Origin: a bacterium UBA6115
GTDB taxonomy: Bacteria > Bacillota_A > Clostridia > Christensenellales > Aristaeellaceae
Reading direction: 5' to 3'
Assembly (NCBI GenBank): GCA_002428405.1
Contig: DIWD01000073.1
Span: forward strand, 1-9,761
Length of the DNA stretch: 9,761 bases
Position numbers and translations under genes: made by a program. How positions within the stretch are numbered: position 1 is the stretch's first letter; every line of letters begins with the position of its first letter. Shown here in pieces: positions 1 through 9,761 of this stretch. The notes below the pieces were generated by a model. It was given only the letters and a program-made list of their open reading frames with translations, did not search any database and was not told the origin of the DNA.

Positions 1-2
1 TC

Positions 3-95
3 GGCATGGACAATGTCAGCCACTTCATCGCCACCTTTAAGAAAACGGAAGGGGTCACTCCATCTGTCTACCGGGACAGCTGGTACAGGCGCTGA
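3..95 (+). CDS. AraC-family transcriptional regulator, C-terminal fragment (5' end outside window)
   Basis: Only the last 30 codons are present, ending at TGA 93-95. The peptide contains GMDNVSHFIATFKKTEGVTPS followed by VYR. This matches the end of the second helix-turn-helix of AraC/XylS regulators, where the pattern G-F/M-x-(D/N)-x-S-x-F-x-x-x-F-K-K-x-x-G-x-(T/S)-P-x-x-Y-R is strongly conserved. By family knowledge the missing part would hold the first DNA-binding helices and a sensor domain. Its ligand and target genes cannot be told from here. The reading frame is intact to the natural stop, so this looks like a window-edge truncation and not a pseudogene. It is transcribed toward the small gene at 247, with a 151-bp gap that contains a parS site. 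Confidence 0.85.
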   Translation, partial: GMDNVSHFIATFKKTEGVTPSVYRDSWYRR

Positions 96-134
96 GGCGC
101 TCTTCCGCTTATCCGGCATAGAATATGCAAACAG

Positions 135-150
135 TGTTTCACGTGAAACA
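135..150. promoter_or_regulatory. parS: parS site 1 (ParB/Spo0J binding palindrome)
   Basis: TGTTTCACGTGAAACA is a perfect 16-bp palindrome identical to the consensus ParB/Spo0J site of Bacillus subtilis. It lies in the 151-bp gap between the AraC-type gene and the 64-aa gene. The palindrome stops at 16 bp, because 134 is G and 151 is T. By established knowledge, ParB dimers load here with CTP, spread or slide along the flanking DNA, and recruit condensin for origin segregation. It is one of three perfect copies in the window. A TAGAAT hexamer at 119-124 resembles a -10 box but has no good -35. Confidence 0.93.
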
Positions 151-246
151 TGCGGGTGGAATGTACAGGCGAAGCAGGACAGGATCATCATGGCTGAACC
201 GCAAATATGCGGAACCAAAACGATCATGATTTTTCAGAGGGACATT

Positions 247-441
247 ATGACGGGATACAGCAGACAGGAACTGGAGGATGCGTTGCGCGCAGTGGAATCC
301 ATCATTGCAAAATGTGATAAAGCGCTGACTGGGCAAAAAGAAGGCAGTCCGCAGAAAACATTGCTGACCCGGCGGATCAAAGCCATGCGGATCTCTGCGT
401 TCCTGATTGAAAAAGAGATGGAAGTGCGCAACGATGGCTAA
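247..441 (+). CDS. Small helical protein of unknown function (64 aa)
   Basis: The ATG at 247 has AGAGGG at 236-241, five bases upstream. It encodes 64 residues beginning MTGYSRQELEDALRAVESII. The protein is rich in charged and hydrophobic residues in helical spacing, with no signal peptide or membrane segment. It resembles short conserved hypothetical proteins of Clostridia with the pattern 'RQELEDAL..(I/V)ES.I.KC.KA...G..Q.TLL.RRIKA..I...LIEKE' (recalled, not searched). An in-frame ATG at 190 would add 19 residues but has a poorer ribosome binding site. The open frame extends farther upstream only because it reads out of frame through the AraC gene. Its last 8 nt overlap the start of the next gene, so the two are probably co-translated. 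Function unknown. Confidence 0.7.
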   Translation: MTGYSRQELEDALRAVESIIAKCDKALTGQKEGSPQKTLLTRRIKAMRISAFLIEKEMEVRNDG

Positions 442-967
442 GAAAACACGGAAAATGCTTGGCGCGGCGGATTCGCCGTGTATCCTGTCGCTGATGGCGC
501 TGATCCAGACCCAGAGCAAGAAGACCATCGCGAACTGGTGCATGGATTACGCGGAAACCCACATCCTGCCCATTTATGAGAAGCACCGCCCGGGCGATGA
601 GCGGCCGCGCCACGCGCTGATGGCCGCGCGGGACTGGCTTCAGGGCCATGTCAAATTACCCTTTGTGAAAAACATCATCCTCAATGAGGCGCACGCCGCC
701 GCGAGGGAGAACGAGGATTATCCCGTCGCGCAGGCGGCGGCCCGCGCTGTGGGCCAGGCCGCGTCCAGCATCCATACGCCGACCCATTCCCTGGGTGTCG
801 CTTTCTACGGCGCGGCCGCCATTGCCTATGACCGCGCGGGCGTGGGGGCGAGCCCGGAAACCTATGACCGCATCGCTTCGGAAGTCTTCGCGGGCATGGA
901 AGCCGCGCTGCGGGCAGCGGCGGTGGAAAATGAGCCCAATCCGGCGAAGATCAATTGGTATTGCTGA
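434..967 (+). CDS. Imm-5-like putative immunity protein (177 aa)
   Basis: The start is ATG 434, giving MAKKTRKMLGAADSPC, with GGAAG at 420-424 nine bases upstream. A longer in-frame start at 407 lies well inside the preceding gene and is less likely. Visible blocks are CILSLMALIQTQSK, ANWCMDYAETHILPIYE, PGDERPRHAL-x-AARDWL, AQAAARAVGQAASSIHTPTHS, and the C-terminal ENEPNPAKINWYC. These match, from memory, the soluble alpha-helical family annotated as 'putative immunity protein' or Imm-5-like, which usually runs about 150-180 aa, so the gene looks full length. The family name comes from association with polymorphic toxins. No toxin gene is visible nearby, so an immunity role here is not demonstrated. 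There is no signal peptide or membrane segment, so it is probably cytoplasmic. It overlaps the 64-aa gene by 8 nt, which suggests translational coupling. Confidence 0.75.
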   Translation: MAKKTRKMLGAADSPCILSLMALIQTQSKKTIANWCMDYAETHILPIYEKHRPGDERPRHALMAARDWLQGHVKLPFVKNIILNEAHAAARENEDYPVAQAAARAVGQAASSIHTPTHSLGVAFYGAAAIAYDRAGVGASPETYDRIASEVFAGMEAALRAAAVENEPNPAKINWYC

Positions 968-1031
968 TTGAATAAAGTATCGCACGGCTTTGCCGGGCGG
1001 GCGGGGAGAATTGCGAAGGGTTTCATTCCTT

Positions 1032-1073
1032 GCATTTTCACTTGCCGGGAGCGCAGCGACCAAGTGAAAATGC
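1032..1073. repeat. Inverted repeat, 13-bp arms with 16-nt loop
   Basis: The arms are GCATTTTCACTTG (1032-1044) and CAAGTGAAAATGC (1061-1073), perfectly complementary around a 16-nt spacer containing GAGCGCAGCGAC. It lies in the convergent gap between the Imm-5-like gene and the oxidoreductase beta gene. There is no T-run, so it is not a standard terminator by itself. Together with the adjacent 28-bp palindrome and the hairpin at 1127 it resembles a REP/MITE-like extragenic unit; that interpretation is inference. Confidence 0.75.
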
Positions 1074-1087
1074 CCGTTCTTCCAAAA

Positions 1088-1115
1088 CGGCAAAGTGTCC
1101 GCGGACACTTTGCCG
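1088..1115. repeat. Perfect 28-bp palindrome
   Basis: The arm CGGCAAAGTGTCCG (1088-1101) is followed directly by its exact reverse complement (1102-1115), with no spacer. It sits 15 bp from the preceding inverted repeat and 12 bp from the terminator-like hairpin. It could be an operator, a transcript-end hairpin or part of a dispersed repeat. The sequence alone does not decide. Confidence 0.8.
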
Positions 1116-1126
1116 ACACTCTGAAG

Positions 1127-1155
1127 ACGCCTCCGGAAATTCCGGAGGCGTTTTC
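1127..1155 (+). terminator. Terminator-like hairpin at the convergent gene ends
   Basis: ACGCCTCCGGA (1127-1137) and TCCGGAGGCGT (1141-1151) form an 11-bp G+C-rich stem around a 3-nt loop, followed on the + strand by TTTTCT. This suits rho-independent termination of the Imm-5-like transcript. The hairpin starts 160 nt after that gene's stop. It also lies 25 nt beyond the stop of the - strand beta-subunit gene and may help end that transcript, although the minus-side trailer (CTTCAG) is poor in T. Confidence 0.65.
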
Positions 1156-1175
1156 TCCATGCGGTTATCGCGCCG

Positions 1176-2027
1176 CTAAACGAGATTTCGCATCAGACGG
1201 TCGAGGACATCCGGGTCGTTCCTGCGCCCGGAGAGCACCTGGCCGTCCCTGAGCGCGGCATGTTTGCTGTGGTAGTCCTCCAGCGGTTTCTCATACAGCA
1301 CGCCGATGGGGATCTTTTCGCCGAATTCCGTTGACAGCGCCATGGCCTTTGCCAGGTCCCCGGTATCGTGGCTTTCATCCAGTTCGTAGATGCGGCTGTT
1401 ATACCAGGCATAGGTGTTGAGTTTGTTGAAGGATACGCAGTTTTGCAGGATGTCCACCAGCGCGTAGCCCTTGTAGCTGATGGCGCGCTTCATCAGCCAG
1501 GCCAGATGCTCCGGTTTGCCGGAAAAGCCCCGTGCCACAAAGCCCGCCCCGGCGCCCAGCGCCATGAGCAGGGGATTGAAGGGGATAGCGCTGCTGCCGT
1601 CCACCTGGACGGGGGTCACCATGCCTTCCATGGTGGTGGGGGATGCCTGGCCCTTGGTCAGCGCATAGAGCTGGTTGTCGTGGACAAAGTGCGTGATGTC
1701 CACATTGCGGCGGATGTTGTGGATGAAGTGGTTGCCGCCCTCGCCGTAAGTGTCGCCGTCGCCGGAGTTGATGATGACACTGAGGCGGGGGTTGACGATC
1801 TTGGCGGCCACCGCCGGGGGCACGGCGCGGCCGTGCAGCCCGCAGAAGCTGTTGGTCCTGAAGTATTGGGGCATCTTGGCCGCCTGCCCGATACCGCCGA
1901 TGATCAGCACGTCATGCGGGTCCAGGTTGAGCCCTTCCAGCGTGTTTTTCAGCGCGCTGAGGATGCCGAAATTGCCGCAGCCCGGGCACCAGGCTGTTTC
2001 CAGGGTTTCATATACCTGCTGGCTCAT
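1176..2027 (-). CDS. korB: 2-oxoacid:acceptor (ferredoxin) oxidoreductase, beta subunit, TPP-binding
   Basis: The 283-aa product is the thiamine-pyrophosphate subunit of a CoA-dependent 2-oxoacid:ferredoxin oxidoreductase. It decarboxylates a 2-oxoacid and passes electrons to a [4Fe-4S] cluster. Motifs: WCPGCG (13-18), GLHGRAVPPA (63-72), the TPP/Mg motif GDGD...GGNH (89-100), RRN (106-108), DNQLYALTKGQASPT (117-131), and LQNC (194-197). Length is normal for KorB-type subunits. C14, C17 and C197 correspond to three of the four cluster ligands known from Sulfolobus OFOR. The fourth position, usually GIGCSS, reads GIGQAA here. The start has a strong AAGGAGG (2035-2041) and overlaps the alpha stop in TAATG, so the pair is translationally coupled. 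There is no separate ferredoxin-like delta subunit. The substrate (2-oxoglutarate, pyruvate, branched-chain) cannot be assigned, so the symbol is a family label. Confidence 0.92.
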   Translation of the reverse strand: MSQQVYETLETAWCPGCGNFGILSALKNTLEGLNLDPHDVLIIGGIGQAAKMPQYFRTNSFCGLHGRAVPPAVAAKIVNPRLSVIINSGDGDTYGEGGNHFIHNIRRNVDITHFVHDNQLYALTKGQASPTTMEGMVTPVQVDGSSAIPFNPLLMALGAGAGFVARGFSGKPEHLAWLMKRAISYKGYALVDILQNCVSFNKLNTYAWYNSRIYELDESHDTGDLAKAMALSTEFGEKIPIGVLYEKPLEDYHSKHAALRDGQVLSGRRNDPDVLDRLMRNLV

Positions 2028-3697
2028 TAAAAGCCCTCCTTTTTGACCCTGTCAGCGATCTGAGCGCCGGACAGCTGACGGCCGTCGTAATTGAGAATAC
2101 TGGCGTTCATCTGAAGGCCGGTCTGCTCGCGGATGAGGCCGCCCAGCTGGCCGGTGTAATTCTGCTCGACATTGATCAGCGCTTTGGCTTTTGCGGCGGA
2201 TTTTGTGAGCAGCTGCTGCGGCAGCGGCCAGACATCGCCGAAGATAAGGGCGGCATAGCGTTTTTCATCCCCATGGGAAAGCAGGTCGACCGCCTCTTTG
2301 AGGGGGCCGGACATGCTGCCCCAGCCCAGCAGGAGGACCTCCGCGTCCTTCGTCCCGATGTGCTCGGGCTCCTGCAGCTCTTTTCTGAGCAGTTCCATCT
2401 TGCCCATGCGCTTGTCCATCATCTTGATCCGTGTCTGGGCATCCTCGATGATGCGGCCAAACTGGTCATGCTCATCTGAGTCGGCGGAAGCAAAGCCCCT
2501 GGGATCGCCGGGGAAAAGCCGCGGGGAGATGCCGCTGTCCGTGAAGCGGTAGCGAGCGTATTCCTCTTTGGCGGAAATATCCCCAGGCTCAAAGACCTTG
2601 ACCTTGAACGGGTCCAGCAGAGGGATGGTGGTCGTGCAGTCCTGCAGAAACTGGTCCGTGAGCAGGATGACGGGAAGCTGGTATTTTTCCGCCAGGTAGA
2701 AGGCGCGGGCAGCCTGATTGTAAGCGTCCTGATGGTCGCGCAGCGCGATGACCATGCGGGGGAACTCACCCTGGGCGGCGGAGATGACAAAACGGAGATC
2801 GGACTGCTCCGTGCGGGTGGGCAGGCCGGTCGCGGGGCCGGGGCGCTGCGCGTCCACCACCACCAGGGGGATTTCCGTTATGCCTGACAGGCCAAGGGCC
2901 TCCACCATCAGGGAAAAGCCGCCGCCCGATGTGCCCGTCATCGCTCGCGCGCCGGCGTAGGAAGCGCCGATGGCCATGTTGATGGCCGCGATCTCATCCT
3001 CGGCCTGCTCGACCGCGATGCCTGTTTCCTTTGCGGACTGGGCCAGATATTCCAAAATCGAAGTGGAGGGGGACATCGGGTAAGCGGAGTAGAACTGAAG
3101 CCCTGCCGCCAGGGCGCCCAGCGACAGCGCTTGGGAACCTGAGAGCAGCATGTCCTCCGTATGGCCGCCTGTCTGCGGCGGGAATTTCTGCTGCACGGCC
3201 CCATACCCAGCCATCGCGGCTTTGACGTTGACTTCCACCAGATCCTCGCGCAGCATATGCCTGAAGATATCCGCGGCCAAGTCGCTGTACAGCGGTATTC
3301 CGAACAGTTTGAGGGCGGCGCCGACCGCCACGGATCCGGAGGCGCGCACATTGCCCAGGGATTTCGCGATGCCGGCCGCGTCCAGCCTGATGACGCGGGG
3401 ATCATCGGACGTTACCGCGCTGTCCGCGATGGCAAAGCCTTCGCCCTGCAGATCCTTCAGGTGGAACGCCAGGGTCTCTTCGTTGAGGGCAATGATACCG
3501 TCCAGGCGCTCAATATGGGAAAGCGGCACCTCCTGCCCAAAGCGCAGGCGGGAAAAATTATGGCCGCCGCGGATGCGCGACATCAGGTCGCGCATGGTGA
3601 ATACGCCGCAGCCCGCGTGTTTGATGAACCGTTCCAGAACGCCTGTGACGGTGTCCACACCCTGGCCGGCCGCGCCGCCGATGAGCAAGTTGTACAT
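2027..3697 (-). CDS. korA: 2-oxoacid:acceptor (ferredoxin) oxidoreductase, fused gamma-alpha subunit
   Basis: The 556-aa product fuses the gamma domain (about 1-180) to the alpha domain. The gamma domain starts with the glycine-rich LIGGAAGQG (5-13) and carries RIRGGHN (41-47). Alpha-domain motifs: GSQALSLGALAAGLQFYSAYPMS (187-209), the family's YPxTPS-type block YPMSPST (206-212), EDEIAAI (233-239), TSGGGFSLM (256-264) and QRPGPATGLPT (284-294). A transketolase C-terminal-like part follows (about 450-556, with VLLLGWGSMSG). This is the standard architecture of two-subunit KorAB-type enzymes, whose partner is the downstream beta subunit. ATG 3697 follows GGGAGGA with good spacing. The gene leads the operon; candidate promoters lie at 3741-3769 and 3806-3833. 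The soluble cytoplasmic heterodimer would use ferredoxin as acceptor. Substrate not determinable. Confidence 0.92.
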   Translation of the reverse strand: MYNLLIGGAAGQGVDTVTGVLERFIKHAGCGVFTMRDLMSRIRGGHNFSRLRFGQEVPLSHIERLDGIIALNEETLAFHLKDLQGEGFAIADSAVTSDDPRVIRLDAAGIAKSLGNVRASGSVAVGAALKLFGIPLYSDLAADIFRHMLREDLVEVNVKAAMAGYGAVQQKFPPQTGGHTEDMLLSGSQALSLGALAAGLQFYSAYPMSPSTSILEYLAQSAKETGIAVEQAEDEIAAINMAIGASYAGARAMTGTSGGGFSLMVEALGLSGITEIPLVVVDAQRPGPATGLPTRTEQSDLRFVISAAQGEFPRMVIALRDHQDAYNQAARAFYLAEKYQLPVILLTDQFLQDCTTTIPLLDPFKVKVFEPGDISAKEEYARYRFTDSGISPRLFPGDPRGFASADSDEHDQFGRIIEDAQTRIKMMDKRMGKMELLRKELQEPEHIGTKDAEVLLLGWGSMSGPLKEAVDLLSHGDEKRYAALIFGDVWPLPQQLLTKSAAKAKALINVEQNYTGQLGGLIREQTGLQMNASILNYDGRQLSGAQIADRVKKEGF

Positions 3698-3740
3698 AGT
3701 ATCCTCCCATGGTTTTCAGGATCAGAGCATAATGAAGTTA

Positions 3741-3769
3741 TTATTATCATACCCAGTCCGGCAAGGGAA
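3741..3769 (-). promoter_or_regulatory. Candidate extended -10 promoter for the korAB operon
   Basis: On the - strand, TG-A-TAATAA (3749-3741) resembles an extended -10 element. A weak -35 (TTCCCT, 3769-3764) lies 17 nt upstream. This would place the transcript start about 35-40 nt before the korA ATG. The -35 match is poor, so this is tentative. Confidence 0.3.
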
Positions 3770-3805
3770 CGGATGATAAAGCGAATATCCTGACTATCCG
3801 CGCAC

Positions 3806-3833
3806 TGTGTAGCAAGGCGGGCGGAAATGTCAA
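3806..3833 (-). promoter_or_regulatory. Candidate promoter with perfect -35 upstream of korAB
   Basis: On the - strand a perfect TTGACA (3833-3828) is followed after 16 nt by TACACA (3811-3806), a weak -10. It lies between the nucleotidyltransferase stop and korA and would give a leader of roughly 100 nt. It competes with the extended -10 site closer to korA; only one may be real. Confidence 0.3.
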
Positions 3834-3850
3834 ATGGTTTTGAAGTGTTT

Positions 3851-4342
3851 TTACTTTACCAAACCCTTGAAGCGCAGAAAGGCGGCAATGGCGTCCGCCC
3901 GTTCATCCCGCCGCAGCAGGCGGTAAGCCTGTTCCTCAAAAATGAGGGAGAGGACCGGCAAGCAAAGGGAGGAAACGGTGACCCATTCAATCAGGGGCGG
4001 CAGAAAAGCGGGCTCACCCCAGGAACCGTCCAGGTTCATGCGGCATGAATCGCCCATGAGGTCGACATCCACGCCCTCGAGCCTGAATTGTCCGTAAAAT
4101 GAGCGGACATACTTCGCGGAGGAGGCCTCCACCGGCTTGATGCAGCAGTCGTTGAGCAGCACTCCGATGCGCAGGGCGCTGTCCCGGTCCGATATGATGT
4201 CAATGTCGTTTACAGGCACCTCCATCCCCTGCAAAGCAAAGGAAGTGCTGCCCGTCAATGCCCAGACCAGGCCTTCCTGGCCCTCCATCCTGGCTATCAG
4301 GGCGCGCAGCGCGCGGATGTGGGTATCGGGTATTGCTGACAT
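3851..4342 (-). CDS. Nucleotidyltransferase-fold domain protein (163 aa)
   Basis: WALTGSTSFALQG (27-39) followed by NDIDI (45-49) is the GS-x(n)-DxD signature of the polymerase-beta-type nucleotidyltransferase superfamily. The third acidic position is supplied by VDVDLMGD (91-98). All catalytic-type residues are therefore present. The layout, with the short helix-GS-DxD core and a later LPVLSLIFEEQAYRLL block, resembles compact AbiEii/ANT-like nucleotidyltransferases annotated only as 'nucleotidyltransferase domain-containing'. Substrate unknown: it could modify a small molecule, tRNA or protein. No HEPN-type or other antitoxin partner lies next to it. ATG 4342 has AGGAGA nine bases upstream. 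The second parS site is in its leader, 26 bp upstream of the start codon. It reads in the same direction as korAB with a 153-bp gap. Confidence 0.75.
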   Translation of the reverse strand: MSAIPDTHIRALRALIARMEGQEGLVWALTGSTSFALQGMEVPVNDIDIISDRDSALRIGVLLNDCCIKPVEASSAKYVRSFYGQFRLEGVDVDLMGDSCRMNLDGSWGEPAFLPPLIEWVTVSSLCLPVLSLIFEEQAYRLLRRDERADAIAAFLRFKGLVK

Positions 4343-4368
4343 AACCGAAACTCTCCTGTATTTCAGGA

Positions 4369-4384
4369 TGTTTCACGTGAAACA
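4369..4384. promoter_or_regulatory. parS: parS site 2 (ParB/Spo0J binding palindrome)
   Basis: This is a second exact TGTTTCACGTGAAACA. Here the palindrome extends to 24 bp (4365-4388), with AGGA and TCCT flanks. It lies in the 202-bp gap between the exporter gene's stop and the nucleotidyltransferase start. An extended -10-like TG-A-AATAAT on the - strand (4405-4397) sits just upstream of it, so the site may cover the start of the nucleotidyltransferase transcript. That promoter has no convincing -35. The rest of the gap (4389-4544) holds no gene that I can support. Confidence 0.95.
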
Positions 4385-4544
4385 TCCTATATGCCAATTA
4401 TTTCATCGCTGCCCGCTCACGGGTTGACCTGGCAAGACCCTTCGTCACAATACCGGGGTCGGGGGATGAGATTCCCTGACAGGGGGTAAGGGGGACAGCA
4501 TCCCCCATGCTTTCCCCGTACATTTTCCATCGTTCCCGTCCCCG

Positions 4545-6392
4545 TCAGGCCTGCTCGAACTGGCTCTCGTACAATTCCTTGTACCGCCCGCCTTTGTTAA
4601 TCAGCTCGTCATGGCTGCCGAACTCGGCGATACCGCCTTCGTGCATGACAAGGATGACATCCGCTTCGCGGATCGTGGAGAGGCGGTGGGCAATGACAAA
4701 GCTGGTGCGTCCCTTCATCAGGAAGCCCATGGCGCGCTGGATGCGGTGCTCGGTGAGGGTGTCCACGTTGGAGGTGGCCTCATCCAGGATGAGGACAGGC
4801 CGGTCGGCCAGCACGGCGCGGGCGATGGTGAGCAGCTGCTTCTGGCCGGAGGAGATATTATCCGCTTCCTCGTTGATCTCCATCCCGTAGCCGCCGGGCT
4901 GGGTGAGGATGAAGTGGTCGGCGTGGGCGAGCTTGGCGGCCTCCCTGACCTCCTCGTCCGTGGCCTCCGGGCGGCCGTAGCGGATGTTGTCCATGATGGT
5001 GCCGGAGAAGAGCCAGGTATCCTGAAGGACCATGCCAAACGAGCTGCGCGCCTCGCTGCGAGCGAGGGTCTTCAGATCCACGCCGTCCAGCGTGATGCGG
5101 CCGGCGATCGGGTCGTAAAAGCGCATGAGCAGCTTGACCAGGGTGGTCTTGCCAGAGCCGGTCTCCCCGACGATGGCGCAGGTCTGGCCGGGGAGCACGC
5201 ACAGGGAGAAATCGTGGATGATGATCTTCTCCGGGTCATAGCCGAAGCGGACGTTCTCAAAGCATACGCGGCCCTTGACGGGGGGAAGGGCCGGCGCGTT
5301 CTCCGGTTCCATCTCCTCCTCTATGTCGATGAAGGCGAATACGCGCTCAGCGGCCGCGGCCATGGTCTGAACGGCCCCCGTGATCTGGGAGAACTGCATC
5401 AGGGGCTGCATAAAGTTGCGCACATACTGGATGAAGGCCTGGATGTCGCCCACGGTGATGAGCCCCATGGCGGCCTGCGCCGCGCCGAATACCGTGACCA
5501 GCAGGTAGCCCAGATTGCTCACAAAGGACATGATGGGGTGCATGAGGCCGGAGAAGAACTGGCTCTTCCAGGCGCTCTCATAGAGCGTTTCGTTCTTCTT
5601 TTTAAAGTCCGCCAGGGAGGAGGCTTCCTGACGGAAGGCCTGCACCACCTGGTGGCCGGCGAAGCTCTCCTCCACCTGGCCGGAAATGTCGCCCAACACC
5701 TTCTGCTGGGCTTTGAAATACTTTTGAGAGCGGGAAAAGATGAGCATGGCCAGCGCCATGGAGAGCGGCACGACCAGGACGACCAGCAGCGCCATGAACG
5801 GACTGATGGTGATCATCATGATCAGGACGCCCAGCAAGGTCGCCAGGCCTGATATCAGCTGGGTGAACACATTGGAGATGTTCTGCGCGACGGCGTCCAC
5901 GTCGTTGGTGATGCGGGAGAGAACGTCGCCCACGCTGGTCTTCTCGTAATAGCCTACCGGGATGCGGTGCAGCTTGTTCCCGATGTCCCCCCTGAGCGAC
6001 CTGCTGAAATCGGCGGTGACGCCGGCCACCAGCCGCTGCATGAGGAAGGAGAAAAGCGCGCTGGTGAGATAGAGCCCCAGCAGGAACAGCAGGACCTGGG
6101 CGACCCTGGTAAAATCAATGCCGCCTGTCCCTCGCACGCGGGCAAGGAGGCCTTCAAAAATAGCGGTGGTCGCCTGGCCGGTGATCTTCGGGCCGAAGAT
6201 GCCGATCGCCGCACTGAGCGCGGATAGAAAACCGCAGAGGATCAGTTTAACACGCCAGGGGCGCAGCACCTTGAGCAGCCGGCGGACCGCGGTTTTGAAA
6301 TCCTTTGGCTTTTCGACCGCCATGACGTGCCCGCCCGGGCCTCCGGGACCGCCGGGCCCCTGCCGGCGCTCTGTTCTTCTCTTCTCAGACAT
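4545..6392 (-). CDS. Heterodimeric ABC exporter, ATP-binding/permease subunit with catalytic Walker B (615 aa)
   Basis: A full half-transporter: a membrane domain with about six helices (about 45-345), then a nucleotide-binding domain. Motifs: Walker A GETGSGKTT (409-417), Q-loop Q457, signature NISSGQKQ (512-519), Walker B VLILDE (533-538) with catalytic Glu538, and switch His569 (IAHRLST). The signature is ISSGQ where LSGGQ is usual. That deviation is expected in the BmrCD/LmrCD/TM287-288 class, where one composite ATP site is degenerate. The partner is the gene at 6385-8538. Start chosen at ATG 6392: AAAGGGGG lies eight bases upstream and the start overlaps the partner's stop by 8 nt. An in-frame ATG at 6446 lacks a ribosome binding site. 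The N-terminus has a short GPGGPGGPGG run, as in some clostridial relatives. The substrate (drug, lipid, peptide) is not predictable. Confidence 0.9.
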   Translation of the reverse strand: MSEKRRTERRQGPGGPGGPGGHVMAVEKPKDFKTAVRRLLKVLRPWRVKLILCGFLSALSAAIGIFGPKITGQATTAIFEGLLARVRGTGGIDFTRVAQVLLFLLGLYLTSALFSFLMQRLVAGVTADFSRSLRGDIGNKLHRIPVGYYEKTSVGDVLSRITNDVDAVAQNISNVFTQLISGLATLLGVLIMMITISPFMALLVVLVVPLSMALAMLIFSRSQKYFKAQQKVLGDISGQVEESFAGHQVVQAFRQEASSLADFKKKNETLYESAWKSQFFSGLMHPIMSFVSNLGYLLVTVFGAAQAAMGLITVGDIQAFIQYVRNFMQPLMQFSQITGAVQTMAAAAERVFAFIDIEEEMEPENAPALPPVKGRVCFENVRFGYDPEKIIIHDFSLCVLPGQTCAIVGETGSGKTTLVKLLMRFYDPIAGRITLDGVDLKTLARSEARSSFGMVLQDTWLFSGTIMDNIRYGRPEATDEEVREAAKLAHADHFILTQPGGYGMEINEEADNISSGQKQLLTIARAVLADRPVLILDEATSNVDTLTEHRIQRAMGFLMKGRTSFVIAHRLSTIREADVILVMHEGGIAEFGSHDELINKGGRYKELYESQFEQA

Positions 6393-8538
6393 GCCGGGCA
6401 CCCCCTTTCCCGGAAAGCTCGGCTTCTGAGAGCTGGCTTCTGGCAATCTGCTGATAAGCCGGGCAGGAAGCCATCAGCTCTTCATGAGTGCCCTGGCCCA
6501 CCAGGCGGCCTTCGTCAAGAACCAGGATCTTGTCCGCCTGCATGACCGTCGCGATGCGCTGTGCGACAATGAGCACCGTTGTGCCGGCAAGCTTTTCCTT
6601 CAGCGCCTGCCGGACCAGCAGGTCCGTGCGGTAATCAAGGGCCGAAAAGGAATCGTCAAACAGCAGGAACCGTGGATTGGAGGCAATGGCCCGCGCGATG
6701 GACAGGCGCTGCTTCTGCCCGCCGGAGAGATTGCTCCCGCCCTGGGCGACGGCGCTCTGGTAACCCTCCCCGCGCTCAGCGACAAAACGCTCCGCCTGGG
6801 CGAGGCTTGCCGCCTTCTCCATGCGTTCATCCGGCATGGTTTCATCAGCGTATTTGATGTTGTTTTCAACGCTGCCCGAGAACAGCACGGCATGCTGGGG
6901 AACAAAGCCGATCAACCCGCGGAGCCCGGGCAGGGAAAGCTCGCGGATGTCGGTGCCGGAGATGGTGATGCGGCCCTGTGTGACGTCATAGAAGCGGGGT
7001 ATCAGACTGAGCAGGCTGGACTTGCCTGATCCGGTCGCCCCGATGACGGCGGCGGTCTCACCCGGGGCGATGACGAAGTTCAGGTCGTGCAGCACTTCCT
7101 CCTGCGAATTCGGATAACTGAAGGAGACCTGGTCAAAACGCAGGCCGTCCGCGGATTCCACCGGAAGCGGCAATGGATCTTCCGGGCTGGTGATGCTTGG
7201 TTTGGTTTGAAGCACCTCATTGACGCGCTGGGCAGCTACCTCGGCCCGGGGCATCATGACCGCTCCGGCCATGGCCATCATCATGAAGGAGAAGGCGATC
7301 TGCAGGGTGTAGCTGATAAAGGCGATCATGTCGCCCACCTGCATCCGGCCGGCCTGGATCCCCTGCGCGCCGAACCAGAGGATCGCCAGGGTCACGCCGT
7401 TGATCACCAGCATCATCAGGGGCATGACATAGCTGAAAGCGTAGTTGATGAAGCGGTTGACGCGGGTGAGGTCCTCATTGGCCTTACCAAAGCGCGCCGT
7501 CTCATTCGCCTCCCTGGAGAAAGCGCGTACCACCTGCACCCCGGTGAGGTTTTCCCGGGCAACCAGGTTCATGCGGTCCACCAGTTTCTGCAGCGTCTTG
7601 AACTTGGGCGTCACCACCGAGGCGATGACAACCACCAGAACCACCATCACGCCCACCGTGACGGCGACGATCCAGCCCAGGCCGGTGTTGGCCCGGGTCA
7701 CGTGCCAGATGCCGCCGGCGGCCATGATGGGCGCGTAGAGCAGCATGCGCAGCATCATGACGGAGGTGGTTTGGATCTGATTGACGTCGTTGGTGGAACG
7801 GGTGATGAGGGAGGCGGTGGAGAAATGGTCAACCTCCGCCTTGGAGAAGGATAGCACCTTTGAGTAGACCTGCCTCCTCAGGCTTCTGCCGATGCGCGCG
7901 CCGGCCCGGCTGGAGATAAAGCTGGTGATGACCGCGGCGAACCCGGCCAGCAGGGTGATGCCCAGCATGATCATTCCCTTATTCCAAAGGAAGGCGTTGC
8001 GGATCCGCGCAAGGTCCTCTCCCAGGCGCTCATACTCCGCCCGCACGAACTGCACCGCGGCCTGTTCCAGAAATTGTTCCGCCTCCGCGCCTTCCAAGGG
8101 CATCGTTTCCCCGATGCGCGCAAGGAGGGCCTCCCGGTTCATCAGGCCGCTGCGCAGTCCGGCCAGGAGCAGTTCAGAACCGGGCATGTTCTCAAGCCCA
8201 AAGAGAACGGCCATCGGCATGCTCAGGGCTTTCCGGGCGGATTCCTGTTGAAGCGCAGTGAGGCCCTTATTGAGGATGTAAACGTCTCCCTCCAGGCTGT
8301 AGGCTGCGCTGACGAAAGTCTTCCCCTCCTCATCCATCAGCAGGGCGAGGGTGTCCATGGATTCGCGGGAGAGCTTCTCGGTCAGCGATGAGGGGATGCC
8401 GCTTTGCTGCACGCCAATGTTGACCAGCGAAGAGGTATACCCCGGCAGCGCCAGCTCGCAGGCAACCTGCGCGATGAGCAGCAGGAAGACCAGCAGCATG
8501 GCCTTCCACTCAGGCTTCATGAAACGGAATATTTTCAA
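6385..8538 (-). CDS. Heterodimeric ABC exporter, ATP-binding/permease subunit with degenerate site and extracellular domain (717 aa)
   Basis: Partner half of the exporter at 4545-6392. Motifs: Walker A GATGSGKSS (500-508), Q548, canonical signature LSGGQKQ (604-610), Walker B FLLFDD (624-629) with Asp629 instead of catalytic Glu, and Gln660 (VAQRIAT) instead of the switch His. So its Walker residues form the weak ATP site and its signature serves the active site. Between the first helix (about 12-32) and the second (about 187-208) lies an insertion of about 150 residues, predicted to form an extracytoplasmic domain. By memory, BmrD-type subunits have such a domain. The start is TTG 8538 (product MKIFRFMKPEW). 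AAAGGA at 8551-8546 sits seven bases upstream, while the next ATG (8520) is too far from it. The gene lies 74 bp after the CorC-like gene and is followed at once by its partner, so all three may be one transcript. Confidence 0.9.
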   Translation of the reverse strand: MKIFRFMKPEWKAMLLVFLLLIAQVACELALPGYTSSLVNIGVQQSGIPSSLTEKLSRESMDTLALLMDEEGKTFVSAAYSLEGDVYILNKGLTALQQESARKALSMPMAVLFGLENMPGSELLLAGLRSGLMNREALLARIGETMPLEGAEAEQFLEQAAVQFVRAEYERLGEDLARIRNAFLWNKGMIMLGITLLAGFAAVITSFISSRAGARIGRSLRRQVYSKVLSFSKAEVDHFSTASLITRSTNDVNQIQTTSVMMLRMLLYAPIMAAGGIWHVTRANTGLGWIVAVTVGVMVVLVVVIASVVTPKFKTLQKLVDRMNLVARENLTGVQVVRAFSREANETARFGKANEDLTRVNRFINYAFSYVMPLMMLVINGVTLAILWFGAQGIQAGRMQVGDMIAFISYTLQIAFSFMMMAMAGAVMMPRAEVAAQRVNEVLQTKPSITSPEDPLPLPVESADGLRFDQVSFSYPNSQEEVLHDLNFVIAPGETAAVIGATGSGKSSLLSLIPRFYDVTQGRITISGTDIRELSLPGLRGLIGFVPQHAVLFSGSVENNIKYADETMPDERMEKAASLAQAERFVAERGEGYQSAVAQGGSNLSGGQKQRLSIARAIASNPRFLLFDDSFSALDYRTDLLVRQALKEKLAGTTVLIVAQRIATVMQADKILVLDEGRLVGQGTHEELMASCPAYQQIARSQLSEAELSGKGGARHV

Positions 8539-8545
8539 ACTTCGG

Positions 8546-8551
8546 TCCTTT
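8546..8551 (-). promoter_or_regulatory. Ribosome binding site fixing the TTG start of the 717-aa exporter subunit
   Basis: AAAGGA on the - strand lies seven bases before TTG 8538. It overlaps the 10-bp palindrome TTTCCGGAAA (8549-8558), which abuts parS site 3. Its spacing is the main reason to prefer the TTG over ATG 8520. Confidence 0.6.
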
Positions 8552-8558
8552 CCGGAAA

Positions 8559-8574
8559 TGTTTCACGTGAAACA
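8559..8574. promoter_or_regulatory. parS: parS site 3 (ParB/Spo0J binding palindrome)
   Basis: This is a third exact TGTTTCACGTGAAACA, extended to a 22-bp palindrome (8556-8577) by AAA and TTT flanks. It lies in the 74-bp gap between the CorC-like gene and the exporter operon, 20 bp upstream of the TTG start. If the two are co-transcribed, the site is inside an operon. Distances between the starts of the three sites are 4234 and 4190 bp. Confidence 0.95.
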
Positions 8575-8612
8575 TTTGGGCGTCCTGTCAGCGGTGACGG
8601 GTATACCGGTGT

Positions 8613-9761
8613 TTACTCGACCTCTTTCCCGGAGTTGCCTGAAGGGGGAGGCCTGAGCGTGAGCCTAACAGCCTCGATGCGGGTATTGCCCGCGCGGATG
8701 ACCTTGAGGGTGAAACGGTCCGTCTCCACCTCAGGTTCCTCGCCCGGCCTGGGGATGTAGCCCAGCAGTTCGATCATGTAACCGGCGATGGTATCCGCGC
8801 CTTCAGACTGGATATCCAGGTCGAACTGGCGGTTGAAATCGCTCAGCGGCAGGCTGCCCAGCAGGACCGCCTCGCGCTCGCTGACCATCTGCATGGGGGA
8901 ATCATCATCATCATCGTATTCGTCCTGGATATCCCCGACGATCTCCTCGATCAGGTCTTCCAGCGTCACAATGCCGGACACGCCGCCGAATTCGTCCACC
9001 AGCACGGCCAGGTGCTGCTTGGACTTCTGGAACTGCACCAGCAGCTCATCAGTGTACATGGTGTCGGGGACAAACATGGCCGGGCGCGCAATGTCGCGCA
9101 GATCCATCCCGTGATCCTGCAGCGCCTGCAGGTTGAGCAGCACGTCTTTCATGTGGATGATGCCCAGGATATGGTCCTTGTCCTCCTCATACAGCGGGAT
9201 GCGCGAGCGCAGCTCCCTGAGCAGATGCTCCATGTTCTTTTCAAACGGCTCCTCGGCGTCCAGCATGTCCGTATTCACCCGGGGCACCATGATTTCCCGC
9301 ACCAGACGGGTATCAAGGGAGAGGACGCCGCGCATCATGTTGAACTCTTCCATGTCGATCGCGCCGTCGTTGCGGCTGGAGCTCAGCAGAGCTTTCATCT
9401 CCTGGCGGGTGAGCTTTTCTTCCTTCTTGGTGAAGTCGACCGGCGTGAGCCGTTTCAGGATGCCCACGGAGGCGGTCAGCAGCCAGATGAAGGGCCTGAA
9501 CATGCTGCGCAGGAAAAGGATGGGGCCGGCCGAACGCAGGGCATAACCCTCGGGAACCTGCAGCGCCAGCTGCTTGGGGTACAGCTCGCCCAGAACCAGG
9601 GAAACGTAGGATATGATGAGGGTGAGGATAAGGTTGGCAACGGTCGCGGCCGCGGGGATGTTTCCAAGCGCCGGCACCAGGAGGCTCAGGAAGGTCTGGG
9701 AAGCCTGCGCGGAATTAAAAAAGCCCGCGAAGGTGATGCCGACCTGAATCGCGGACAGGAA
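8613..9761 (-). CDS. HlyC/CorC-family transporter (DUF21-CBS-CBS-CorC_HlyC), 5' end outside window
   Basis: 382 codons are visible, with the frame open to the right edge. The fragment begins FLSAIQVGITFAGF, the usual 'LSTIQIGITLAG' end of the first DUF21 helices, so roughly 50-60 residues are missing. The first in-window start-like codon (GTG 9677) is internal to DUF21 and not the true start. Order (fragment numbering): DUF21 membrane helices with GELYPKQLALQ (58-68), then two CBS domains (about 152-278) ending in LAVLVDEFGGVSGIVTLEDL and EEIVGDIQDEYD. A run of Asp follows (about 283-287), then the C-terminal CorC_HlyC domain (about 295-370). The 'hemolysin' name is historical. Members such as Salmonella CorC and B. 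subtilis MpfA act in magnesium or cobalt efflux, which is the best guess here. It is co-directional with the exporter, 74 bp away. Confidence 0.92.
   Translation of the reverse strand, partial: FLSAIQVGITFAGFFNSAQASQTFLSLLVPALGNIPAAATVANLILTLIISYVSLVLGELYPKQLALQVPEGYALRSAGPILFLRSMFRPFIWLLTASVGILKRLTPVDFTKKEEKLTRQEMKALLSSSRNDGAIDMEEFNMMRGVLSLDTRLVREIMVPRVNTDMLDAEEPFEKNMEHLLRELRSRIPLYEEDKDHILGIIHMKDVLLNLQALQDHGMDLRDIARPAMFVPDTMYTDELLVQFQKSKQHLAVLVDEFGGVSGIVTLEDLIEEIVGDIQDEYDDDDDSPMQMVSEREAVLLGSLPLSDFNRQFDLDIQSEGADTIAGYMIELLGYIPRPGEEPEVETDRFTLKVIRAGNTRIEAVRLTLRPPPSGNSGKEVE

Follow-up and report, generated by a model that had tools for sequence, protein, structure and literature searches.

The 9,761-nucleotide stretch of DNA analyzed here (hereafter the window; contig DIWD01000073.1 of the bacterium UBA6115, positions 1 to 9,761, forward strand) carries three perfect copies of a 16-bp palindrome, which very probably are chromosomal parS sites of a ParABS segregation system, placed 30-40 kb from a replication origin (oriC) that lies upstream of dnaN, with dnaA and parAB at a distance. 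The evidence on the placement of the sites was drawn mainly from relatives, i.e., the closest genome found (G152), its genus and other genomes from a sample of 200 belonging to one family.

Three probable parS sites in the window

Scanning the whole window, we found TGTTTCACGTGAAACA exactly at positions 135, 4369 and 8559, and no further match resembling it, even with up to three mismatches:

135..150, no strand: parS site A, a perfect 16-bp palindrome with an exact counterpart within the same gap in G152
4369..4384, no strand: parS site B, between the start of a nucleotidyltransferase gene and the end of ABC2, the second gene of an ABC transporter pair
8559..8574, no strand: parS site C, between a CBS-domain gene and ABC1, the first gene of the pair

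When the window was shuffled 200 times with its dinucleotides preserved, the 16-mer was matched 0.03 times on average and once at most, ruling out a chance origin of the three sites. The parS consensus quoted in PMC10197239 is the same 16-mer, such that all three copies match it perfectly. An earlier note, made from the sequence of the window, had claimed three exact copies at these positions, unexpected by chance, identical to the B. subtilis Spo0J/ParB consensus and intergenic; these claims were borne out, the last of them relative to Pfam-recognized genes, as longer, mechanically called open reading frames (ORFs) do overlap the sites (e.g., 13-441 across site A). The spacings between the sites (4234 and 4190 bp) are nearly regular, at ~4.2 kb, and follow the lengths of the intervening genes; we thus rejected the spacing as a signal and claim no meaning for it.

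Site A is flanked by the end of an AraC-type helix-turn-helix (HTH) gene (~base 95) and by a possible 64-aa ORF at 247 without a Pfam match. Site B precedes the nucleotidyltransferase start (4342) by 26 bp. Site C precedes the likely TTG start of ABC1 (8538) by 20 bp and stops short of the CBS gene, which ends at 8613. Such positions, just upstream of likely start codons, would also suit a transcription-factor operator serving the adjacent genes (the ABC pair and the nucleotidyltransferase) rather than a centromere site, and ParB-parS is able to repress adjacent genes in P. aeruginosa (PMC7022226). However, in relatives the 16-mer adjoins other genes, namely recF and addA (G168 and G099) and a rhamnulokinase-like gene that follows it (G071), and wherever it shares a contig with dnaN it lies no more than 38.2 kb away. 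Considering also that it equals the known parS consensus and that ParB is encoded by most near relatives (see below), we regard the operator as very unlikely.

The sites are partly retained in relatives

To follow the sites beyond the window, we compared it with contig C58 of G152, whose gene order is the same. The encoded CBS protein, ABC1, ABC2 and both subunits of a 2-oxoacid:ferredoxin oxidoreductase (OFOR) are 87-93% identical between the two (87% over the full protein length for OFOR alpha), the nucleotidyltransferase 82% and an Imm-5-like protein 65%. G152 holds three parS sites at up to one mismatch, all of them on C58 in the matching gaps and none elsewhere in the assembly. The counterparts of sites B and C are positionally homologous, each with 15 of 16 letters and with flank identities of 0.79 (B) and 0.80 (C).

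Site C is kept in four of the six genomes showing the CBS-ABC1 junction, exactly in G166 and G005, with one mismatch in G096, and in G152; it is absent from the other two, G071 and G001. Site B is likewise kept just 3' of ABC2 in 4/6 genomes (G152, G166, G096 and G006), and in G071 a parS site stands on the opposite side of the nucleotidyltransferase gene. The parS sites of this cassette are retained yet subject to turnover.

Across the family, at least one site (up to one mismatch) was present in 179 of the 200 genomes, at 1-7 copies each, as opposed to matches in 3/200 genomes for the reversed-sequence control; the copy number, which the earlier note proposed to count, is thus low. All 11 genomes of the genus of G152 have the site, and a search at up to two mismatches found sites in 16 of 17 genomes.

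In relatives, parS lies at the skew-defined origin, beside dnaN

We next located the sites relative to the origin using four genomes treated as single contigs (G168, G099, G189 and G137, the main contig of the latter spanning 3.41 of about 3.5 Mb). GC skew was computed in twenty 20-kb samples per genome in G168, G099 and G189, and at parS only in G137. The skew turned from negative to positive at parS in all three fully sampled genomes, with dnaA and parB falling inside the replichores, and the halves of the G137 sample shifted from -0.023 to +0.060. The parS samples contained 22 (G168), 15 (G099) and 20 (G189) DnaA boxes at up to one mismatch, the 19 other samples of each genome averaging 5.6, 4.8 and 5.3 with maxima of 11, 9 and 12, respectively; the G137 parS sample contained 23. 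All seven sites (up to one mismatch) of the four genomes lie within ~2 kb of dnaN, and in G168 and G099 the gene order is polA, rimO, an unannotated ORF, dnaN, recF, parS, addA.

Linkage of parS to dnaN was then tallied in two sets of genomes. The first comprised 26 genomes, of which two outgroup controls (G007 and G008), one genome without dnaN (G004), one without parS (G030) and one without a parS place among the matches listed (G065) were outside the count; dnaN and parS shared a contig in 11 of the remaining 21. The second comprised 25 genomes chosen from those with parS places among the matches listed, and here the count was 11 of 22, omitting G150 (no dnaN) as well as G041 and G057, for which not all parS places are listed, those listed being on contigs that lack dnaN. 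Where sites occurred on two contigs (G180, G066, G022 and G132) one contig was entered, that of dnaN if it had a site, so that a genome counts as linked when at least one of its sites is. On shared contigs, the parS-dnaN distance ranged from about 1.2 to 38.2 kb. G061 and G075 have two dnaN matches each.

Closer to the window, one contig of G096, a member of the genus of G152, holds both dnaN and a window-like CBS-ABC1-ABC2 cassette with two sites, 13.7 and 17.8 kb away from it. In G152 itself, dnaN lies at 16.2-17.3 kb of contig C15, whose skew is negative at 15 kb and has turned positive by 21 kb. Genes at the right end of G152:C58 also occur on G071:C124, which continues to dnaN. On a composite map made by hand from these two contigs, the equivalents of site A, site B and site C fall ~33, ~37 and ~41 kb from dnaN; these distances are approximate, since the contigs are not fully alike in local gene order. 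By this composite synteny, oriC and the window would be on the same replichore side, some 30-40 kb apart. The third-codon-position skew of the window, +0.128 on the plus strand (1323 G vs 1022 C), fits an origin to its left, as the synteny map predicts. DnaA boxes do not cluster in the window or in G152:C58, and oriC itself is therefore not within the window.

The earlier note had proposed an origin-proximal region, to be checked against GC skew. The copies indeed cluster near oriC in relatives, where the sign change coincides with parS in three single-contig genomes and parS is linked to dnaN; the window's own distance follows by synteny. A plasmid or an integrated element with its own partition sites could in principle account for a window in which parAB, dnaA and dnaN are not recognized, but the gene block recurs in members of the genus, its gene order leads on to dnaN, and the same type of site marks the chromosomal skew origin in the single-contig genomes. 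We rejected a plasmid or mobile origin on the recurring block and the gene order towards dnaN, no search of a plasmid collection being made, and consider it extremely improbable.

dnaA and parB lie far from the origin region in four genomes

Measured round a circle in the four single-contig genomes, the distance from parS to dnaA was 1.323 Mb in G168 (39% of the chromosome), 1.382 Mb in G189 (39%), 1.214 Mb in G099 (37%) and 1.286 Mb in G137 (38%), and that from parS to parB was 0.875 Mb (26%), 0.905 Mb (25%), 1.005 Mb (31%) and 0.749 Mb (22%), respectively. The earlier note proposed to map the copies against dnaA and parAB; the expectation that these would lie near parS fails: instead of adjoining oriC, dnaA lies 37-39% of the chromosome from parS and dnaN, and parB, at 22-31%, lies outside the 20% of the chromosome around oriC, in four of four genomes. 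In G168, dnaA adjoins pheS-pheT. A ParA-like gene, below the curated cut-offs for ParA families, stands beside parB in the two genomes examined for it (G168 and G071).

No parAB, dnaA or dnaN gene was recognized in the window, by its ORF list and a Pfam search, as the earlier note had stated; the lack of dnaA and parAB is explained by the distances found in the four genomes.

Could the distances be an assembly artefact, or a quirk of a few single-contig genomes, around sites that are nevertheless parS? Only four such genomes were examined, three of them (G168, G189 and G137) are so similar in scores and spacings that they may be close kin, and the main contig of G137 is incomplete. Among the matches listed for fragmented genomes, parS was found on none of 18 dnaA contigs and none of 17 parB contigs, a lack of linkage that is weak evidence because the contigs are short. 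Nevertheless, G099 has a different layout and agrees, and the window's lineage has a putative unwinding element, not dnaA, upstream of dnaN (see below). In addition, the same searches returned the canonical arrangement in the controls G007 and G008 (complete Anaerocolumna genomes), where parS adjoins parB and ~13 kb separate them from the dnaA-dnaN pair. Taking both sides into account, we find an artefact highly unlikely. As a separate observation, contig C137 of G120 (L179, L273) carries a second dnaA beside a second dnaN, possibly through contamination.

A candidate unwinding element upstream of dnaN

An alignment of 14 dnaN upstream regions revealed DnaA-box-like letters, a C-rich step and CTA repeats, which are sometimes interrupted. 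This pattern was shared by ten members of the genus together with G037 and G120, and appeared in a weaker form in G168 and G099. Under a strict definition of the DnaA-trio (an unbroken row of at least three CTA/TTA, read on the dnaN strand; the trio mechanism is described in PMC6669920), it occurred upstream of dnaN in 10/14 regions and upstream of dnaA in 0/17, one of the latter being only 121 bases long. The four negative dnaN regions were those of G166, G005 and G197, with interrupted repeats, and that of G099, which matched on the opposite strand only; in G166 and G005, no DnaA box at up to one mismatch was found upstream of dnaN. Upstream of dnaA we found 2-5 DnaA boxes in 16 of 17 regions, the exception being the second dnaA of G120, with one box. 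In the window's lineage, the region upstream of dnaN consists of this candidate unwinding element and does not contain dnaA.

In C. difficile, oriC1 precedes dnaA, and the region between dnaA and dnaN holds the unwinding oriC2 and its trio (PMC7561715). Judged by these motifs, the clostridial bipartite oriC looks split in the family, with the boxes remaining with dnaA and the unwinding element with dnaN, and we infer that the dnaN-side element would start replication. A second DnaA-box cluster was observed near the addA end in G168 (L250:12477-13420) and G099 (L264:11955-13033), 5-6 kb from the dnaN-side element; it might replace the lost half.

The family ParB carries parS-type residues

A search for ParB found it in 15 of 16 near relatives. 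The best structural matches of the G071 protein were solved Spo0J and ParB structures. Taking positions 173 and 201 at fixed offsets from the GKSR motif (two of the 17 ParBs being cut by contig ends), we found R at 173 and G at 201 in 17/17 proteins, all with a GERR motif. This R173/G201 pair was called absolutely conserved in ParB, and K at 184 permissive for Noc-type binding (PMC7383237). ParB of G166 has K at 184, and the other ParBs have no K at 179 or 184. Noc-type binding was rejected for these proteins, as the Noc residues Q173 and R201 occur in 0/17; no search was aimed at a separate Noc. The earlier note had named the absence of a parB homolog from the genome as a refutation of its reading; 15 of the near relatives have one, and the draft assembly of G152, the closest genome found, gave no match. 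G071 has, besides its chromosomal ParB, another protein of the ParB family, a weaker match within a frame of 524 aa (G071:C12:32580-33047, L162).

Proposed explanation and observations against it

In other bacteria, ParB is known to load as a clamp, to slide along DNA, to recruit SMC and to respond to ParA. By analogy, ParB dimers would bind each of the three predicted parS sites, load as cytidine triphosphate (CTP) clamps and then slide along the neighbouring DNA, where they would recruit SMC and respond to ParA, such that the origin region would be segregated first. In this family, oriC would lie directly upstream of dnaN, at least hundreds of kb from dnaA and parAB, and the parS cluster and the unwinding element would together mark the origin without its usual neighbour genes. 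We further propose, as a probable arrangement, a split bipartite origin in which the box half has remained with dnaA, at roughly three quarters of the distance to the terminus, and the unwinding half with dnaN, while parAB is found mid-replichore. The cis sites alone (DnaA boxes, DnaA-trios and parS) would then mark the origin, and initiation and segregation would proceed without the usual coupling by gene dosage and proximity.

Several observations weigh against this explanation. The window is placed through relatives and not from its own whole genome, and G152, the closest genome found, has no ParB match in its draft assembly. Site A of G152, although exact and in the same stretch, is offset by ~110 bp in the alignment, so that its base position is not shared, and G001 has the cassette but neither site B nor site C. 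parS and dnaN are on different contigs in about half of the genomes, whose assemblies are fragmented, and G071, G180, G066 and G022 carry extra parS sites on contigs without dnaN. With respect to skew, two samples are slightly wrong-signed (G099 at 1.02 Mb, +0.002; G189 at 0.6 Mb, +0.011), values for G096:C6 are positive to the left and right of dnaN, the final 5 kb of G071:C124 contain no change, and the values for G152:C58 are mixed and near zero overall. DnaA boxes are not enriched on parS contigs of the window's lineage away from dnaN. Finally, C. difficile unwinding in vitro required both origin halves (PMC7561715), which speaks against the dnaN half acting alone.

Genes of the window

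The genes recognized around the three sites are:

1..95, plus strand: 3' end of the AraC-type HTH regulator gene (PF12833 and PF00165, neither reaching the curated cut-off)
434..967, plus strand: gene for the Imm-5-like protein (PF21805, 1.3e-38)
1176..2027, minus strand: OFOR beta subunit (Pfam)
2027..3697, minus strand: OFOR alpha/gamma subunit (Pfam; 87% identity to the G152 protein)
3851..4342, minus strand: nucleotidyltransferase-like protein (PF10706, 1.5e-07, above the curated cut-off)
4545..6446, minus strand: ABC2, second ABC transporter of the pair (Pfam)
6385..8538, minus strand: ABC1, first ABC transporter of the pair (Pfam)
8613..9677, minus strand: CNNM/CBS/CorC-HlyC membrane protein (Pfam)

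A scan with the OFOR alpha subunit matched mostly clostridial contigs. PF10706 is the aminoglycoside-2''-adenylyltransferase family, and the product of 3851-4342 possibly just has the general nucleotidyltransferase fold. Three inverted repeats lie at 1032-1155, within the gap between the Imm-5-like and OFOR beta genes; one is a perfect palindrome of 28 bp (1088-1115), another a hairpin resembling a terminator (1123-1155).

Comparison with known systems

parS and ParB are textbook elements; their gene neighbourhood here is not. If the arrangement holds family-wide, the family is a natural experiment on two questions: whether initiation control depends on the dosage of dnaA close to oriC, and whether segregation depends on the proximity of parAB to parS. 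In such genomes, start points, growth-rate estimates or origin calls based on dnaA would err by ~1.2-1.4 Mb, and parS together with dnaN would be better origin markers than dnaA.

An origin away from dnaA is already in print: in a 12-member gut consortium, the origin, as set by parS and skew with backing from read coverage, is not systematically located at dnaA (PMC10197239). A limited literature search, which took in few subscription papers, found no report in which parAB lies outside the origin domain or a bipartite oriC is split, and, for Clostridia, none beyond the papers cited here in which dnaA or parAB is remote from the origin. The family resembles those gut bacteria in that the origin is set by a parS cluster and GC skew and not by dnaA; unlike the present work, the available text of PMC10197239 names no species for this and does not mention the position of parAB or a split oriC.

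Compared with the B. subtilis-type ParABS system, the 16-bp consensus is identical, several copies lie at the skew-defined origin of the relatives, the family ParB has parS-type residues and GERR, and a ParA-like gene is beside parB (two genomes). However, parB of the family is 22-31% of the chromosome from parS in all four genomes, whereas the location of par operons inside the 20% ori domain is described as a conserved feature (PMC7022226). With the clostridial bipartite oriC of C. difficile, the family shares the DnaA boxes that precede dnaA and, ahead of dnaN, a DnaA-trio accompanied by boxes. In C. difficile, though, the two halves flank dnaA, whereas those of the family are ~1.2-1.4 Mb apart in the single-contig genomes, with the skew origin at the dnaN half.

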